Below are positions 8,967-39,544 of a stretch of DNA of 64,000 nucleotides, in pieces (position 1 is the stretch's first letter; every line of letters starts with the position of its first letter). The notes beneath the pieces were generated by a model. That model was given only the letters and a program-made list of their open reading frames with translations, had not been told where the DNA came from and made no database searches. Source of the stretch: Hymenobacter persicinus (GTDB taxonomy: Bacteria > Bacteroidota > Bacteroidia > Cytophagales > Hymenobacteraceae); the NCBI RefSeq assembly GCF_004167665.1, contig NZ_SEWE01000002.1:62001-126000 (forward strand), read 5' to 3'. The position numbers and the translations under genes are program-made.

Positions 8967-9194
8967 CCCTGTAGGCTTCCTGCTTCCGAACGATGCAAGC
9001 TTGGCGGCAGCATTCGTTCGTGAGCAGGTCCCAGCCGGGTAAGCCTTGCTTAGGGTACCCTACCAACCAACAGGCCTGAATCCAGGCCGCTTCTACTCTC
9101 TATCTAGTTTTCCTGCTGCGCATGGGGCTGCCTAGCGTTGTCCCAGGCCCATCCGCAGCGTCGACCGGACGTCTTTTGGTTTCCTTATTCCTGA

Positions 9195-9617
9195 ATGAAA
9201 TTCCCATTTTTCAATCGACTGCAACTCAAGAAAATCACCGTAGCGGTGGCCGATGAAACGGGAAAGCAGGCGCAGAAGGTACTGGAAGGACTGCTGGCCG
9301 AGCTCCCGGACCTGCTAATGACTTGCGTGGTCGATATTTCCTCCGGGCAGGTGCTGGCGTTTTACACCGTCAGCAGCGACTACAATCCCAACCAGATCAG
9401 CCTGCGCCATGCCAAGCTGCTGCGCACCATGGATCAAGCCCTGGCCAGCAACGCTTGGGTGGGCGGCCCCCTGACGGACGTGTCCGTCATGCTGGAAGAC
9501 CAGCTTCATCATCTGCGCCCAATGAATGCCGGCAAATGGTACTGCTTCCTGGCCGTACGCACTGCCGACGTGAACCTGGGCATTGCCAAAGAAATCATGC
9601 GCCGGCATACGGCCTGA
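9195..9617 (+). CDS. Roadblock/LC7-like protein, first of a pair
   Basis: A 140-residue protein without signal or membrane segment. The fold resembles the roadblock/LC7 (MglB-type) family: helix LEGLLAELPDLLMTCVVDISSGQVLAFYTV, then a central helix ending LLRTMDQAL, and a final strand YCFLAVRTADVNLGIAKEIM. In bacteria such proteins often act as GAPs or scaffolds for small Ras-like GTPases of the MglA type, but no GTPase gene is nearby. The paralogue at 9669 follows after 51 bases, so the two are probably co-transcribed and may form a heterodimer. The family call is by resemblance. Confidence 0.65.
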   Translation: MKFPFFNRLQLKKITVAVADETGKQAQKVLEGLLAELPDLLMTCVVDISSGQVLAFYTVSSDYNPNQISLRHAKLLRTMDQALASNAWVGGPLTDVSVMLEDQLHHLRPMNAGKWYCFLAVRTADVNLGIAKEIMRRHTA

Positions 9618-10394: not shown

Positions 10395-11441
10395 ATACCA
10401 GGCCCGCACCCGCGCCTCGGCGTTCTGGCGCAGGTTCATATAAAACAGGCCGTAGTCGGCAATGTGGAAGGAGTGACGGAGCTGGGGCTGGCCGGGCAGC
10501 AGAAAGCGCGGGTAGCCCAGGGGTTTGGGCGGGTGAATCCAGAGCAGGCCATTGTGCACTTTAGCGTCGACCACGGCCGTATCGATTCGGTCGAAGCCGA
10601 TGGGTACGCCACCGTGGTTTAATGCGCTGGAAGCCGTCATGGTGTCCAGCTTCCAAGTGAGCGGATTAGTGGCCACGCCCCCGGCGAAGGGCGGATACTC
10701 ATTGCCCCACTCCACCGCGTTCCAGGTCACGTAGCAGCCCGTCTGGGTGGAGTCGGCGCAGGGACGCACGGCCTGATACTCGTCGGTTTTGACTTTGAAG
10801 CCTATCAGGTAAGCTACCACCAGCTGTTGGCGCAGCTTGGGGTTGGTATCGAAAAACTCGTGCAGCAGGCGCGTGGCGTGGAAAGTGCCCTGGCTGTGGC
10901 TGGCAATGATAATAGGCCGGCCCTGGTTGTAGTGGGCTAGGTAATACTGAAAAGCGGCCTTCACGTCGCCGTAGGCCAGGTCGAGAGCGCGGCGGCCGTT
11001 GTCGCTCTGCTCGTCGAAGAAGGAGTAAAGCGTAGCCTGCCGGTAGCGGGGCGCGAAAATGCGGCCGGCGGAGTTGAACACGCCCGCCTGCTTGCGAATC
11101 ACGCTGCCGTCGGTGAACCGATTCAGGCGCTCATCGGTCAGGTCGGCATTCCAAGCTTCGCGCTTGAAAAAGGTGGTGGGATGCACGTAGAACACGTCGG
11201 CCCGGGCCGTCTGCTGCTCGTCGCGCAAGGCCGTGTGGCGCGGCACTACGTCGGCGGAGTCGCGGCGGCTGGGCAGGGCGGCCCAGCTGGCGGGCAGGGA
11301 ATAGTCGGGAGCCAGGGCGGGCTGGTAGGCCGTAAACTGCTTGCCGGGCTTGATAAGGGTGGTGCAGGAACTCAGCGCGGTGCTGCCGGTCAGCAGCACA
11401 CCCAGCGCCGCAGTCCGCAGAAATACAGAAGTAGTAAGCAT
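10380..11441 (-). CDS. DUF3089 lipoprotein, alpha/beta-hydrolase-like
   Basis: A 353-residue lipoprotein: signal peptide with lipobox ending ALSSC (Cys26). The mature part has DVFYVHPTTFF, SAGRIFAPRYRQATLYSFF, a helix with AFQYYLAHYNQGRP and the nucleophile elbow IIASHSQGT with Ser183, which is the DUF3089 pattern of predicted alpha/beta-hydrolases. Candidate acid and His residues are in the C-terminal third (HNGLLWIHPP, SFHIADYGLFY). It is probably a membrane-anchored esterase or lipase of unknown substrate. The gene ends inside the last codons of the convergent small gene at 10098. Confidence 0.82.
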   Translation of the reverse strand: MLTTSVFLRTAALGVLLTGSTALSSCTTLIKPGKQFTAYQPALAPDYSLPASWAALPSRRDSADVVPRHTALRDEQQTARADVFYVHPTTFFKREAWNADLTDERLNRFTDGSVIRKQAGVFNSAGRIFAPRYRQATLYSFFDEQSDNGRRALDLAYGDVKAAFQYYLAHYNQGRPIIIASHSQGTFHATRLLHEFFDTNPKLRQQLVVAYLIGFKVKTDEYQAVRPCADSTQTGCYVTWNAVEWGNEYPPFAGGVATNPLTWKLDTMTASSALNHGGVPIGFDRIDTAVVDAKVHNGLLWIHPPKPLGYPRFLLPGQPQLRHSFHIADYGLFYMNLRQNAEARVRAWYSVSK

Positions 11442-11517
11442 GACGACTAGTTAGAACACAAAAATAGCTCACGCCGGGTTGGCGGGAGCTATTTCGTTTG
11501 GGCTAACCAGCTGGTGA

Positions 11518-12627
11518 CTACTCCGTGAAGGTATTTTCCAGCAGTCGTTCCTGCCGCAGGTACTTGATTTTGAAGTTGCGGTCGAACCGGACGCGGACCT
11601 GGGCGCGAGTTTGCTGGTGCTTTTGCAACGACTGCCGCAGGGCGCTGCTTTTTTCCAGGAACGTGACCACGCGGGAGCCGTCGTTGACGGGGGCACTAAC
11701 CTGCAGGCTGCCGGGCTCAATCTGAGTTTCGGCCTCCAGAAACTCCGGGAAATGGCTTTTGGTCAGCTCTTCGTTGATGGCGGCCGGCGTGGTATTCTGC
11801 ATCGTGTAGAACCGCTCCACGGTGGGCGCAAAATACTGGGCTGCGCTAAACGGAGCCGCTTTCAAATCCTCGTAGTAAGCCGACAGCACGCCCTCAATCC
11901 GGGTGCGGGCGGCGCTGTCGTCGGCGGGAGTTTCGGCGGGCGGCGCATCAGCGGGGGAAGTGGCGGGAGCCGTGCGGGCCGAATCCGGGGCCGCTGCCGG
12001 GGACACGACGGGCGGCGCCACCCGAATCGTTTCGGGCGCCGGGGCGGGTGGCAGGTCAATCTGCTCGGCCTGGGGGCCGGTTTCAGGCTCTACCTGCACG
12101 CTGTCGGCCTCGGTCTGGCTGGTACTGCTCAGGTGTTCCGACTCCCGGTTGCCCAGCATCAGGTAGGCCACCAGGGCCAGCAGCGCCACGATGCCGCCGA
12201 TGATAAGCACAGTCATCAGCGGGTTGCGGGCCGGGGCCACGTAGGGCATATCGACCTCTTCCGCTTCCACCGGCGGCAGCGGCTCGGCGTCGTAAACGTC
12301 TTCCGCGCTGGGCGAAGCCCCTGGCCGCCCCGACTCGATGGGCCGGCTAAATGGATCGGCCGGCGGGGCCGGCGCGCTCGGGGGCACGATGGGCGGCACG
12401 GATGGCGGCGGCGGATGGGACACGATGGGCGGCAGCAGGGGCTCCTCCACCGGGGCGCTGGCCGTCAGCGGCGGGGGCATTTCCATCGGCGGCGGCGCAA
12501 CAGGGGCCGACTCGCTGAAAAGGAGCTTTTGTTTGAGCGTGGTAAACTCTTCGGGGGTGATGGTGCCCGCGTCGAGCCATTCTTTGAGCTGACGCAGGGT
12601 ATCGAGGGGGGAAGGATCTTTTTCCAT
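11518..12627 (-). CDS. Membrane protein with N-terminal SHOCT-like motif and proline-rich linker
   Basis: A 369-residue protein. The first 37 residues form a SHOCT-like motif (DTLRQLKEWLDAGTITPEEF, then TTLKQKLL), usually found at C-termini and thought to mediate oligomerisation. Next come a long Pro-rich acidic region, a membrane helix at about 136-158, a second Pro/Ala-rich linker and a C-terminal globular part (about 245-369, ARTRIEGVLSAYYEDLKAAPF) probably in the periplasm, similar to the DUF4440/NTF2-like layout but not clearly assigned. It is the last gene of a likely three-gene unit (13679 to 11518). Function is unknown. Confidence 0.75.
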   Translation of the reverse strand: MEKDPSPLDTLRQLKEWLDAGTITPEEFTTLKQKLLFSESAPVAPPPMEMPPPLTASAPVEEPLLPPIVSHPPPPSVPPIVPPSAPAPPADPFSRPIESGRPGASPSAEDVYDAEPLPPVEAEEVDMPYVAPARNPLMTVLIIGGIVALLALVAYLMLGNRESEHLSSTSQTEADSVQVEPETGPQAEQIDLPPAPAPETIRVAPPVVSPAAAPDSARTAPATSPADAPPAETPADDSAARTRIEGVLSAYYEDLKAAPFSAAQYFAPTVERFYTMQNTTPAAINEELTKSHFPEFLEAETQIEPGSLQVSAPVNDGSRVVTFLEKSSALRQSLQKHQQTRAQVRVRFDRNFKIKYLRQERLLENTFTE

Positions 12628-12668
12628 TGGGAGCTAAGCGGAGAACTTGACGAAGCCAGCCGGCCCGC

Positions 12669-13388
12669 CTACTTACGTTCCAGGGCCGTCATTCGGTCAC
12701 GCTTGCGCTGGAGCTGGAGCTTGCGCAGGTCCATCTGCTGGGCATTGCCGATGAGCTTAACGGAGTCTTCGCGGGCTTTAAGCGTGTTGCTGATGTTCTG
12801 CTGCTTGAGGGCCTCGATTTTCGCCAGGTTGCTGGTGGTGTTGGTCTGGAGGCTGGTGCGGTCCTTTTCCAGCTTCTCCTTTTCCTTCTCGGCTTCCTTG
12901 AGCTGCTTTTCGGCCTCGGCAATCTGCTCCCGGTAGGCCTTGAGGCGGGCAGCCGAGGCAAAGCTCTGGGTGATGGTGCGCAGGGCCGCAAACTCGGTGG
13001 CGTTCTTGTCGGGGCTCAGGAAAGTGTCGGCGCCGAAAGCGGCCCACACCGACAGTTCGGAGGTAGAGTCGGTGGGCGAGGTGACGGTGGAATACAGGTC
13101 GATGAGCTTGCCCGACACGCTGGAGGCCGGCGTCTGCTTGGCCACGAGCAGGTCGCTCTTGCCCAGCCCAAGCACGCCCCCACCCTTGAGGCGAATGTTG
13201 TAGGTATCCTTGAGCCACGACTGCCAGAAATCCCGCGTCCAGGCGGCGGTGCCTTCGACCTGCACCTTCACCGCGTCGCGCTCCTTTTTCTCGAAGTTGA
13301 CGCTGGTCGTGCGCGCGTCGTAGAGCTGGGCCTGCACGGCCGTGCAACAGGAGCAGAAAATCAACAGAACAGCAACGTAGAATTTCAT
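12669..13388 (-). CDS. Secreted coiled-coil protein of unknown function
   Basis: A 239-residue exported protein with signal peptide MKFYVAVLLIFCSCCTAVQAQ. The middle region is globular (WTRDFWQSWLKDTYNIRLKG, GLGKSDLLVAKQ), and the C-terminal half is a charged coiled coil (about 140-235, with KEAEKEKEKLEKD and LRKLQLQRKRDRM). It is 41 bases upstream of the SHOCT-like membrane gene and 45 bases downstream of the gene ending at 13434, on the same strand, so the three probably act together at the envelope. I do not recognise the family. Confidence 0.72.
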   Translation of the reverse strand: MKFYVAVLLIFCSCCTAVQAQLYDARTTSVNFEKKERDAVKVQVEGTAAWTRDFWQSWLKDTYNIRLKGGGVLGLGKSDLLVAKQTPASSVSGKLIDLYSTVTSPTDSTSELSVWAAFGADTFLSPDKNATEFAALRTITQSFASAARLKAYREQIAEAEKQLKEAEKEKEKLEKDRTSLQTNTTSNLAKIEALKQQNISNTLKAREDSVKLIGNAQQMDLRKLQLQRKRDRMTALERK

Positions 13389-13433
13389 AGGATTCGAAAA
13401 ATTAAAAGCTCACAAATTCACTAGTCCGCCACT

Positions 13434-13679
13434 CTACAGGTCGTGGCGGTCGAAAGCGGCCTGCAGGTCGTGGCGCATCTGCTGGAAGCGCTGCACGGCG
13501 GCAGCAATAAACTCGGCGTCGAGCAACGTGCGCACGTCGTCCTCACTGGTCACGTCCATCTCGCTCACCTTGTAGGTTTGCTCGAGCTGGCCTTTTTCGA
13601 GCTTGATGAGGTACTTGCCGTTCCAGGAAAAGAGCGTGATTTTGGCGTCGGGGTGGGGAATATCGGCGAGTTGGCGCAT
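13434..13679 (-). CDS. Small cytoplasmic protein of unknown function
   Basis: An 81-residue protein from ATG 13679 (MRQLADIPHPDAKITLFSWN). The frame extends to 13808, but those 43 residues are Arg/Cys-rich and overlap the promoter of the divergent gene at 13827, so the short form is preferred. Visible content is a beta strand pair (KITLFSWNGKYLIKLEKG) followed by acidic helical sequence. An AACCTTTG string just upstream resembles a -7 box. It is the first gene of the unit running to 11518. No function is assigned. Confidence 0.65.
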   Translation of the reverse strand: MRQLADIPHPDAKITLFSWNGKYLIKLEKGQLEQTYKVSEMDVTSEDDVRTLLDAEFIAAAVQRFQQMRHDLQAAFDRHDL

Positions 13680-13794
13680 GGCGGCAAAGGTTGGCGAAAT
13701 TGACGGGGCGAAGATAGGCAGGCGGCCGCTACCAGCCCGCCGCCGGCAAGCTCGACATAACACCCGGCTGGCTCCCGCGTAAGCCCTCGTAACG

Positions 13795-13802
13795 CAGTTT
13801 TG
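13795..13802 (+). promoter_or_regulatory. Candidate -7 box for the gene at 13827
   Basis: CAGTTTTG is one mismatch from TAnnTTTG and lies 24 bases before the ATG at 13827. Confidence 0.35.
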
Positions 13803-13826
13803 TTTCACCTAAACCATTCTTGCACC

Positions 13827-36260: not shown

Positions 36261-37076
36261 ATGCTCACCTCCGTCCGTCGTCTGGCGCTGCTCGTAGTAC
36301 TCAGCACCGTTTCGCTCACCGCCGCCCAGGCCCAGAAAAAGCTTAAGTACCCGAAAGTGCAGGCCGACCAGATCTACGACGCCGTGCAGAAGCCAGCCGT
36401 GCCCGTGGGCGGGCTGCAGGCCTACGCCGACTACCTCGAGAAAAATCAACAGTACCCCACCAAGGCCCTGCAGGCCGGGCAGGAAGGCACGGTCAACGTG
36501 ACGTTCGTGGTGGAAAAATCGGGCGGTATTTCCAACGTGGCCGTTACGCAGGCCGTAGCCCCGGAGTTGGACGCGGAAGCCATTCGCCTGATTAAAGGCG
36601 GGCCGAAATGGACGCCGGCCGAGCACAAGGGCGGCAAGGTGCGGCAGCGCGTGACGGTCCCCATTTCCTACAAGCTGCCCCTGGGCGCCGGCGGTCCCGC
36701 CCCCGCCGTGGCCGACGACGGCACGCCCCTGAAGCCCGCGGGCACCAACGGCGCTCCGGCCCCGACGGTGGTGGCGCCCGAGCAGCCCGCCCGGCCCGTG
36801 GGCGGCACCGACGCCTTTTTTGAGTGGATCCAAAAAAATCAGCGCTACCCCGCCTTGGCCCGGCAGCGCAAGGTGGAAGGCCGCGTGCCGGTGGAGTTCA
36901 TGATTCAGAAAGACGGTACGCTGACCGACGTAAAGCTGGCTGGCAAGCGCCTGGGCTCCGGCCTCGACGAGGAAGCCCTGCGCCTGATCAAGGCCGCGCC
37001 CAAGTGGACGCCCGCGCAGTTTCAGGGGCAGCCCGTAAAGCAAAAGATGGTGTTGCCGGTTATATTCCAGTTGTAG
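36261..37076 (+). CDS. Periplasmic protein with two TonB C-terminal domains
   Basis: A 271-residue exported protein with signal peptide MLTSVRRLALLVVLSTVSLT. Two TonB_C domains are present in tandem: about 45-140 (ADYLEKNQQYPTKALQAGQE, then VVEKSGGISNVAVTQ, IRLIKGGPKWTPAEHKG) and about 180-271 (FEWIQKNQRYPALARQRKVE, IQKDGTLTDVKLAGKRLGSG, LRLIKAAPKWTPAQFQG), joined by a Pro/Ala-rich linker. There is no N-terminal TonB membrane anchor, so it is not a standard energy-transducing TonB. It may bind receptors or be a soluble partner. The diadenylate cyclase-like gene follows after 81 bases. Confidence 0.88.
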   Translation: MLTSVRRLALLVVLSTVSLTAAQAQKKLKYPKVQADQIYDAVQKPAVPVGGLQAYADYLEKNQQYPTKALQAGQEGTVNVTFVVEKSGGISNVAVTQAVAPELDAEAIRLIKGGPKWTPAEHKGGKVRQRVTVPISYKLPLGAGGPAPAVADDGTPLKPAGTNGAPAPTVVAPEQPARPVGGTDAFFEWIQKNQRYPALARQRKVEGRVPVEFMIQKDGTLTDVKLAGKRLGSGLDEEALRLIKAAPKWTPAQFQGQPVKQKMVLPVIFQL

Positions 37077-37157: not shown

Positions 37158-38735
37158 ATGCTTGCCCCGCTGCCCTTGATTTCCGCCCCGCCCGTCGCGC
37201 CCATGCTGCCACCGCTGACCCCGGTGAACGAATTAACCATCTGGCCCTACCAGGCGCGTTTTCGGCAGGCGGCGCAGGGCATTGCCGACGGCATCTTCGA
37301 GGCCCTGGACGATGAGCTGGACCCGGACGTGATTGTGGTCGGAATTCCGCTGGACCAAACGACGCCCGAGCCGACGGCCGTCTGCCTGGAACCGGCCGAC
37401 TGCGGTCTCGACTTCCGCCGCTTCGGCGACGTGCTGGCCCGGGGGGAGCATTTTCAGCTCACCGAGCCCTGGCCTTCGACTTCACCCTCACCCGAACGGG
37501 AACATATTACTACCGAAATGGCCGTTCGGCGCCAGCACGCCATGGGGCTGCGCCGGGCCATGCAGGAAGTCCTCGACGAGCTGGATACGCCCACTGGCCG
37601 GCGCCAAAGCTTTGCCGGCTGGCCTATTCAGGTGGGCAGCTACTACGTGATAACCGTACTTCAGCTCAACCGCAAAGCCCTACGCCTGCACCCGACGCTG
37701 CGGCCCAACCGGTTTTACACCGACGGTAAGCTATTGGCGCCTTCGCTGCTGCAGGCGGCCATTCTGCGCTTCAATGAGGAGTGCATGAAGTCGCTCACCG
37801 AACCGGAGCCGGGCTCGGGGCTGCTGGTACGCCCCCGCGAAACGGAGGAACTGGTGCGGGCAGCCGGCAAGTTGCTAATGGATACCCTGGCGCAGGCGCT
37901 GGGCATCAGCCCGGGTTCGGCCAAGCTGTTTGCGACCTGTAACACGATTTCGTCCTTGCGCTACGAGGGCGCCGAGGGCGTGGGTAAGCTGATTCTGGCC
38001 GCCCGCCGCCACCCCAACCTGGAAGAAGTTTTTGCCCTGACCTGCCCCACCCCGCTCACCGATTACCGGGCCGTGCGCAAGCTGCTCGAAATGACCACTG
38101 CCGACGTAAGCCTGCTCGCCGACGGCGAAAATGTGTACGCTCTGGGCCGGCAGATTGGCACCTACGACGCCTCCCGCGAGGACTTGTTTCTGATCAACTT
38201 CGTGACTCATTACGCCTGGGAATTTCAGCACGACGGCAAGGTGCTTATGCGCAGCAACTACGGCCTGCCCAGCCTGCCCCGCGCCCGGCTCAACCGTTCC
38301 AAGTTCCGCAAAGACCTCAAGCGCACCTTCGAGTTGACCGACCCGATTAAAGTGGAGCGCCTCTGGGACGTGGTGCTCGAAGCCAGCCGGCAAAAGCACG
38401 GGACGTTGGTTGTCATCACCACCGAGGCCCTGGCCGAAGCCGACCGCCTTAAGCTGCAGTGCACCCTCATTGAGCCCGTCCCGCTGACTCCGCTCATCAC
38501 CCGCCTCATCACCGCCATCGACGGCGCCATCCTCATCGACCCCGAATCGTACTGCTACTCCATCGGCGTGATTCTCGACGGCAAGGCTTCCGGCAACGGC
38601 ACCAGCACCCGCGGCGCCCGCTACAATTCGGCCATCCGCTACGTGGAAAGCAGCCCTTACCCCTGCATGGCCATCGTGGTCAGCGAGGATGGCCTGGTCG
38701 ACGTCATCACCAAAGACAGCAACCGCGAGGAATAA
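37158..38735 (+). CDS. Predicted diadenylate cyclase (DisA_N/DAC domain) with large N-terminal sensor region
   Basis: A 525-residue cytoplasmic protein. The last 115 residues match the DAC fold that makes c-di-AMP from two ATP: strand GTLVVITTEALAEA, helix with LTPLITRL, DGAILIDPESYCYSIGVIL (DGA at 455-457), then RGARYNSAIRYVESSPYPCM in the place of GTRHRAA, and the strand IVVSEDGLVDVI. The usual RHR becomes R-Y-N. Residues 1-410 form a large region (IADGIFEALDDELDPDVIVV, FATCNTISSLRYEGAEGVGK, YRAVRKLLEMTTADVSLLAD) resembling the DACNV-type sensor domain described by Aravind and colleagues. ATG 37158 is chosen; ATG 37203 is an alternative. The gene is alone, ending in a terminator. Confidence 0.82.
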   Translation: MLAPLPLISAPPVAPMLPPLTPVNELTIWPYQARFRQAAQGIADGIFEALDDELDPDVIVVGIPLDQTTPEPTAVCLEPADCGLDFRRFGDVLARGEHFQLTEPWPSTSPSPEREHITTEMAVRRQHAMGLRRAMQEVLDELDTPTGRRQSFAGWPIQVGSYYVITVLQLNRKALRLHPTLRPNRFYTDGKLLAPSLLQAAILRFNEECMKSLTEPEPGSGLLVRPRETEELVRAAGKLLMDTLAQALGISPGSAKLFATCNTISSLRYEGAEGVGKLILAARRHPNLEEVFALTCPTPLTDYRAVRKLLEMTTADVSLLADGENVYALGRQIGTYDASREDLFLINFVTHYAWEFQHDGKVLMRSNYGLPSLPRARLNRSKFRKDLKRTFELTDPIKVERLWDVVLEASRQKHGTLVVITTEALAEADRLKLQCTLIEPVPLTPLITRLITAIDGAILIDPESYCYSIGVILDGKASGNGTSTRGARYNSAIRYVESSPYPCMAIVVSEDGLVDVITKDSNREE

Positions 38736-38916: not shown

Positions 38917-39429
38917 TTATTTTTTGGCCCGGTACGACCACGTGATGCGGAACACGGCCACCGTGTCGCCGGCCTGGTCGGTGCCGGTGCTGGTGCAGAC
39001 CACGGTGCGGCCCTCGCCGGTGGCCCGGCTCTCAGCGATGGCTTGGGCAATACGGGGCCCGTCGGAGCTGGTGAAAGCAATCAGGCCCACGGCTTTCTTG
39101 GTGAATTCCGCTTCCAGCCCCACCACCAGCATCGACACGCGCCCGCCCTGGGTGTGCATCATGGAGAGTACGCCGCTGGCCATTTCGGCGGCCATGCTCA
39201 GGCAGGCGAAGTAGATGCTGCGAAATGGATTTTTGGTCAGGTACTTAAACGGCACCGTCACCGTGGCTTGCTCGGGCGTGATTTCGCGGATGCGCAAGCC
39301 GGCCAGGTAGGCCATGGGCAGGCTGCGCAGCATAAACAGGCGCAGCTTCAGCGGGTTGGAAATGGTACGCCGGAAAGCCGCCGCCTGGGGCGTATCCGGG
39401 GAAGCGGGAACAGCTGCGGAAGTAGACAT
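38917..39429 (-). CDS. DUF4442 hot-dog-fold thioesterase-like protein
   Basis: A 170-residue cytoplasmic protein from ATG 39429 (MSTSAAVPASP); the open frame has 12 more residues that are likely untranslated. The hot-dog pattern is REITPEQATVTVPFKYLTKN, FRSIYFACLSMAAEMASGVL and RTVVCTSTGTDQAGDTVAVFRITW, which fits the DUF4442 acyl-CoA thioesterase-like family. Substrate unknown. Confidence 0.8.
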   Translation of the reverse strand: MSTSAAVPASPDTPQAAAFRRTISNPLKLRLFMLRSLPMAYLAGLRIREITPEQATVTVPFKYLTKNPFRSIYFACLSMAAEMASGVLSMMHTQGGRVSMLVVGLEAEFTKKAVGLIAFTSSDGPRIAQAIAESRATGEGRTVVCTSTGTDQAGDTVAVFRITWSYRAKK

Positions 39430-39544
39430 GGCCAGCGGACTACGTGGAGAAGCTGCAAAAAGCAAAAAATATTCGGCATGCCGAGCTTTTTCACATGTTT
39501 ATCCGCGGGCAGTATTTACAAAGTTTCTTAACGGGGTACTGGGC

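Follow-up and report, generated by a model that had tools for sequence, protein, structure and literature searches.

The gene at positions 37,158 to 38,735 of the window (the whole 64,000-nucleotide stretch of Hymenobacter persicinus DNA analysed here) encodes a DACNG-DACNH-DAC protein that is probably a soluble, ligand-gated nucleotide cyclase acting in core signalling in Hymenobacter, uncoupled from CBASS operons; we give this reading a probability of about 0.6. The architecture itself is known, while its genus-wide, two-paralogue, CBASS-free core version in Hymenobacter appears to be new: the open-access literature searched gave no description of it, and nothing on DACNG, on DACNV, or on Hymenobacter with c-di-AMP. 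The features of the locus are as follows.

36261..37076, + strand: protein with two TonB_C domains (PF03544), 81 nt ahead of the DAC gene; putative operon partner
37158..38735, + strand: DACNG-DACNH-DAC protein, 525 aa, the 'B' paralogue (ATG-start ORF)
37239..37880, + strand: DACNG probable sensor domain, residues 28-241 (Pfam PF21752, E 1.1e-67)
37923..38234, + strand: DACNH probable sensor domain, residues 256-359 (Pfam PF21750, E 3.6e-30)
38379..38711, + strand: DAC (diadenylate cyclase) domain, residues 408-518 (PF02457, E 1.1e-10, plus structural match)
38520..38528, + strand: DGA motif, residues 455-457 (D455 and G456 invariant in 62/62 alignment rows)
38610..38633, + strand: RGARYNSA, residues 485-492, with R488-Y489-N490 at the canonical R-H-R place (alignment)
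38917..39465, - strand: DUF4442 protein (PF14539), convergent neighbour outside the unit

All three domains scored over the cut-off of 27 bits in hmmscan against Pfam (DACNG 228.4 bits, DACNH 104.5 bits, DAC 41.6 bits), and the domain assignment is far above chance (E = 1e-67, 4e-30 and 1e-10, respectively). With DG and RGxR(Y/F)N in its C-terminal DAC domain, the protein shows every defining feature of the DACNG-DACNH-DAC family. The sequence-only reading had proposed a soluble cyclase with a dedicated sensor-like N-terminus, DGA at residues 455-457 and RGARYNSA at 485-492. Translation and alignment placed both motifs at these residues, PF02457 and the structure prediction described below both recovered the DAC domain, and Pfam labels DACNG and DACNH 'probable sensor domain'. 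No transmembrane helix was found in the protein, the highest 19-residue Kyte-Doolittle mean being only 1.45, within the DAC domain. Two N-terminal stretches, CNTISSLRYEGAEG (261-274) and VRKLLEM (306-312), both lie within DACNH; Y269 and E270 of the former and R307 and K308 of the latter are invariant in the 62-row alignment, and Y269 is replaced by H in the 19 A paralogues. The names DACNG and DACNH reportedly come from Burroughs 2015. A PF02457 profile search of the contigs of the same genome left the window protein unlisted despite its 41.6 bits in hmmscan, so DACNG-type DACs are undercounted by that search. PADLOC gave no match for the protein.

An AlphaFold2 model built on the 62-row alignment (pLDDT 89.8, pTM 0.87) matched DisA and CdaA entries over its C-terminal part with Z of 11.3-13.4 (VIA), including M. 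tuberculosis DisA 9y9y_D (Z 13.4, rmsd 2.9 A, 123 residues), T. maritima DisA 3c1y (Z 13.2) and CdaA 8c4n (Z 13.0). By sequence, neither the single window protein nor the 62-row profile matched a solved structure. DACNG gave weak best fold matches, to MglB (Z 6.0-6.7, under the level of a trustworthy match, and 6.0 for the domain modelled alone, pLDDT 91) and to LuxR-type ligand-binding domains (Z about 5; VIA), and Foldseek returned no match for it at E <=0.001. As these Z values are only middling, no fold family is claimed for DACNG; its modelled alpha/beta arrangement is compatible with, and not proof of, a roadblock/GAF/LuxR-LBD-like sensor. A sensor role of DACNG and DACNH draws on the 'probable' of the Pfam label and on weak fold matches (Z about 6), a point that counts against the ligand-gated reading.

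DACNG was found by profile search in all 120 Hymenobacter genomes examined, at two places in 116, three in 3 and one in 1 (81% complete); in two of the three-place genomes (G005 and G010), one copy was split over two places. A sample of 150 genomes of the family had DACNG in 76 (66 Hymenobacter, 8 of g26, a sister group, each carrying two copies, and 2 of g23 with one), and a sample of 395 genomes of the phylum had it in four, all Hymenobacter, and in 0/391 others. As some Flavobacterium and Pedobacter species carry the DACNG-DACNH-DAC family, its absence outside Hymenobacter is not absolute. The 19 genomes in which both places were read (17 Hymenobacter, 2 g26) had exactly one A and one B copy apiece, which dates the A/B split before the separation of these two groups. 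In a 104-row tree, A and B each came out as a single clade (support 100), that of A joining g23, and 25/27 CBASS-linked rows fell in another part, the other two (L132 and L147) lying apart from them. The tree used 104 of 129 rows (leaving out L090, L164-L166 and 21/29 named Hymenobacter rows) and a quick method, and with several very long branches it does not settle whether A and B are sisters. A mobile or phage origin was rejected for the window copy, as the gene is core in 120/120 genomes. Phage records gave 0 tblastn matches among 50,697 at E 1e-5 or E 1, and viral contigs gave four family matches, three of them remote, at 24-31% identity with the Citrobacter query. The fourth, on a 34.9-kb IMG/VR viral contig (L163), is a full-length family DAC 51% identical to the Citrobacter protein and is accompanied by a CD-NTase and a Cap15-like gene detected with our own profiles.

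The alternative that survives best, though we consider it unlikely, is that the protein is still anti-phage: a DS-2-type DAC, standing alone or acting in trans, which strengthens defence or supplies an effector encoded at another chromosomal site. It draws on the family relationship, since DS2_3_antiphage (NF053872) was the sole NCBIfam match of the window protein (E 1.2e-137). DS-2 combines a phospholipase and a cGAS-like cyclase with a DAC, by the name DS2_3 the third gene of the system, and the DefensePredictor study (PMC13092281) reports that mutation of either of two predicted catalytic residues of the DAC abolished defence, so that the DAC is needed there; the same source credits the CBASS-DAC association to Galperin 2023, 'All DACs in a row'. 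The proposed link between the RYN family and DS-2 comes from the NCBIfam name and from homologues over the DS2_3 cut-off with RYN and an adjoining CD-NTase (L036, L083 and L037 among those tested). DS-2-type CD-NTases lay in the flanks of 23/51 non-Hymenobacter loci, and one more, L126 (Chryseobacterium), carries a different type of CD-NTase within a type II CBASS. These loci come from the best 80 of 362, ranked by their likeness to a Citrobacter protein that is itself CBASS-linked, so that the proportion with CBASS is no fair sample. Homologues on Citrobacter and Gluconobacter plasmids adjoin a patatin and a nucleotidyltransferase gene, and a plasmid homologue of Priestia lies near a nucleotidyltransferase gene; neither gene was found within 8 kb of the Dyadobacter and Phycisphaera plasmid homologues. 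Our own profile detected Cap15, a STING-like effector, in the flanks at 15 DAC loci, four of them Pfam-confirmed. In addition, the genome of the window itself carries a CBASS-like pair of patatin and SMODS/DncV-like CD-NTase genes (L081, 7537-10089 on contig C20), on a different contig from the DAC genes.

Several results weigh against a defence role. The window protein scored 459.7 bits and paralogue A 453.7, below the DS2_3 equivalog cut-off of 630, and the match of the window protein stopped at position 487 of 576 in the profile. What is missing is a C-terminal extension some 110-120 residues long: the motif is followed by 30-35 residues in Hymenobacter rows and by 109-123 in those full-length relatives in which the script located it. 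Profiles detected no CD-NTase, patatin or Cap15 gene in the flanks of the window locus (L040, C2:91000-109000), of 37 other A/B loci, of two g23 loci or of 29 named Hymenobacter loci. The 67 Hymenobacter flanks (38 A/B and 29 named) overlap, with L043 and L153 identical, and the CD-NTase queries were a DS-2-type profile and the L081 and L126 cyclases, which an unlike CD-NTase may escape. A CBASS at the window locus was thus not found within the flanks read, and the earlier remark that no effector gene adjoins the DAC gene held. Presence in 120/120 genomes, nearly always as a pair, is unlike the sporadic occurrence of defence genes, and the Pfam CD-NTase model SMODS matched only 17/71 Hymenobacter genomes, 16 over cut-off. 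This model misses some CD-NTases; by its measure, A and B persist without one in most species.

The joint absence of the extension and of CBASS neighbours suggests, from sequence comparison, that the extension may serve coupling to CBASS partners. This is no strict rule, as the Dyadobacter and Priestia members also lack the extension, the Priestia one lying near a nucleotidyltransferase gene, and the extension is retained by many members for which no CD-NTase was detected.

Three loci outside Hymenobacter combine DAC and Cap15 genes with no adjoining CD-NTase detected (L097, 9992-12344; L111, 9992-12368; L091, 9309-11752). The two genes are convergent in Psychrobacter (L097), where the other neighbour of Cap15 is purL, and in Acinetobacter rudis, where they lie beside a DRT reverse transcriptase; in Methylomonas they are on the same strand with a gap of 5 nt. 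In the Psychrobacter genome SMODS matched nothing, while the A. rudis and Methylomonas genomes have a single match apiece, and the DAC-Cap15 loci are a possible CD-NTase-free system. In the Chryseobacterium locus (L126), a 147-aa ORF at 9063-9506 with RGSRYRTA and a weak DAC match below cut-off (E 0.009), separated from the full DAC protein by a JAB gene, is a possible second, shortened DAC.

The sequence-only reading had taken RYN as a changed motif altering activity or substrate, but the motif does not set this protein apart. The pattern RG[AS]R-(Y/F/L)-N was present in 38/38 ORF rows collected without using the motif, from searches of the same genome, a DACNG HMM in relatives, and tblastn on plasmids (7 matches, 5 read); these rows, some from members next to CBASS genes, represent 36 different loci including the window, three rows being one paralogue, and the L variant is RGARLNAT in L038. 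In the 62-row alignment (61 of 84 fetched loci plus the window, leaving out L090, L164-L166, 5 near-duplicates and 14 Hymenobacter), D455, G456, D474, G475, R485, G486, R488 and N490 were invariant in 62/62 rows, and position 489 was Y in 58 and F in 4. As the best 80 of 362 genome loci were retrieved through RGARYNS- and AIGVILDG-type patterns, conservation of the motif in this alignment is partly built in; the same eight residues were invariant in 38/38 A and B sequences of Hymenobacteraceae, a set collected by way of DACNG. A degenerate motif peculiar to the window protein was thus ruled out, RYN being family-wide. The genome also encodes a membrane CdaA (CdaA_N plus DAC) with DGA and GLRHRAA and 139.5 bits for Pfam DAC. 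In hhalign against this CdaA, RYN fell under RHR at a very low alignment probability of 1.4%, so the DAC homology rests on Pfam and on the fold.

Family-wide loss of two of the three RHR residues raises the question of catalysis, and a DAC domain that no longer cyclises, binding nucleotide in a protein that acts as regulator or scaffold, is a still less likely account than defence. The low Pfam DAC score (41.6 bits against 139.5 for the CdaA of the same genome) points in this direction, as does the finding on M. tuberculosis DacA (PMC3328451) that RHR to AAA abolished ATP binding and activity. However, RYN keeps the first arginine of RHR, R488, N490, D455 and G456 are invariant, and the same motif is found in homologues over the cut-off of DS2_3, a family named after a DAC whose catalytic mutants are reported to lose defence. 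A low Pfam score is also a poor guide, as these homologues may score lower still (L083 and L111 had no Pfam DAC match at E 0.01). No enzyme assay of a DACNG-type DAC was found in the searchable open-access literature.

Selection and conservation bear on the same question. The 11 ortholog pairs computed had dN/dS of 0.03-0.23, indicating purifying selection (0.086/0.683 between the window gene and the relative nearest to it in the tree). Conservation is highest in the DAC domain, with a mean pairwise identity of 91.3% among 19 B proteins, followed by DACNH (83.6%) and DACNG (52.6%); the values for 19 A proteins were 78.8%, 75.7% and 68.0%, respectively, and 87 residues were invariant across all 38 A and B proteins. 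On these alignments, DAC is the most constrained part of the B-type protein, and a dead cyclase under such constraint on its catalytic domain is less likely than a working one.

It is improbable that the enzyme cyclises but that the RYN site and the invariant D474 give a product other than c-di-AMP, differing in base or linkage: the family-wide loss of H and R together with an invariant DG (ILDG) where the CdaA of the same genome has ILPV would fit such a product, which would keep a second pathway apart from the c-di-AMP of CdaA, but the motif residues of known DACs contact mainly the ATP phosphates and metal, so specificity need not change.

Regarding the surroundings of B, the TonB_C gene lay upstream in the same strand and order in 19/19 B loci, at 13-124 nt in 17 of them, with one overlap due to ORF choice and one gap of 604 nt. 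This tight spacing suggests that the TonB_C and DAC genes may form a single transcript, and their products may be functionally linked. The order may instead be kept by inherited synteny alone, as the DUF4442 gene is likewise convergent to B in 19/19 loci, at spacings of 16 to 6542 nt. The A loci have other neighbours. At L041, an 86-aa protein with two hydrophobic stretches, predicted to be a two-helix membrane protein (9079-9339, + strand), is divergent from the A-type DAC gene; it is kept in 18/18 other A loci, had no Pfam or PADLOC match, and is a possible membrane partner for the A-type cyclase. An HI0933-like flavoprotein gene also lies beside A in 18/18 other A loci. Near the A-type DAC of L041 are a CLC-type channel with two CBS domains (12048-13826) and an Na/H exchanger (10764-11951), found in 16/18 and 12/18 other A loci, respectively. 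In other bacteria, c-di-AMP targets include CBS-domain proteins and cation transporters. No gene for a c-di-AMP receptor was shown to be linked to the DAC gene.

A core gene in two versions would probably make a signalling molecule used in a routine or a stress response. As a canonical membrane CdaA is already present and presumably supplies housekeeping c-di-AMP, A and B would be dedicated inputs. A cytosolic ligand would bind DACNG and/or DACNH, and its binding would bring DAC domains head-to-head, as DAC chemistry needs; head-to-head dimers are required by known DACs (PMC8573169). D455 together with R488/Y489/N490 would then stand in for the DGA/RHR set and join two ATP into c-di-AMP or a closely related product, and the signal would act on targets encoded elsewhere. 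More speculatively, and on balance doubtfully, a defence-type cyclase family would have entered the Hymenobacter core as two specialised, C-terminally shortened paralogues, a second nucleotide-signalling route next to CdaA with a distinct signal made at the RYN site, and in other lineages the DAC, coupled to the STING-like Cap15 with no CD-NTase, would alone supply the signal of a CBASS-like system.

The DACNG-type family has so far been noticed as a partner of CBASS. Hymenobacter offers a natural separation of the two, with the enzyme in every species examined and no SMODS-type CD-NTase in 54/71 genomes. This bears on the activity and product of RYN-type DACs, on the ligands of DACNG and DACNH, and on how a defence-type enzyme may be turned into a core regulator. 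For assays, the Hymenobacter DAC may also prove cleaner than DS-2 with its two cyclases.

Compared with known systems, the window protein shares DACNG-DACNH, DG and RGxRYN with the DS2_3 (NF053872) homologues over cut-off, from which it differs in falling below that cut-off and in lacking the C-terminal extension. It has DGA where DGT is common in the CBASS-linked clade, and its gene is core chromosomal with no CBASS neighbours found, unlike the DS2_3 defence members. With DisA and CdaA it has the DAC fold and DGA in common, and it carries RYN instead of their canonical RHR. DisA carries a C-terminal DNA-binding part. CdaA has a transmembrane part where the window protein has N-terminal DACNG and DACNH, and the genome encodes a separate CdaA. 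Likeness to the sensor-linked DAC proteins (Burroughs 2015; Galperin 2023) lies in DACNG and DACNH themselves, through the Pfam description of each as a probable sensor domain.
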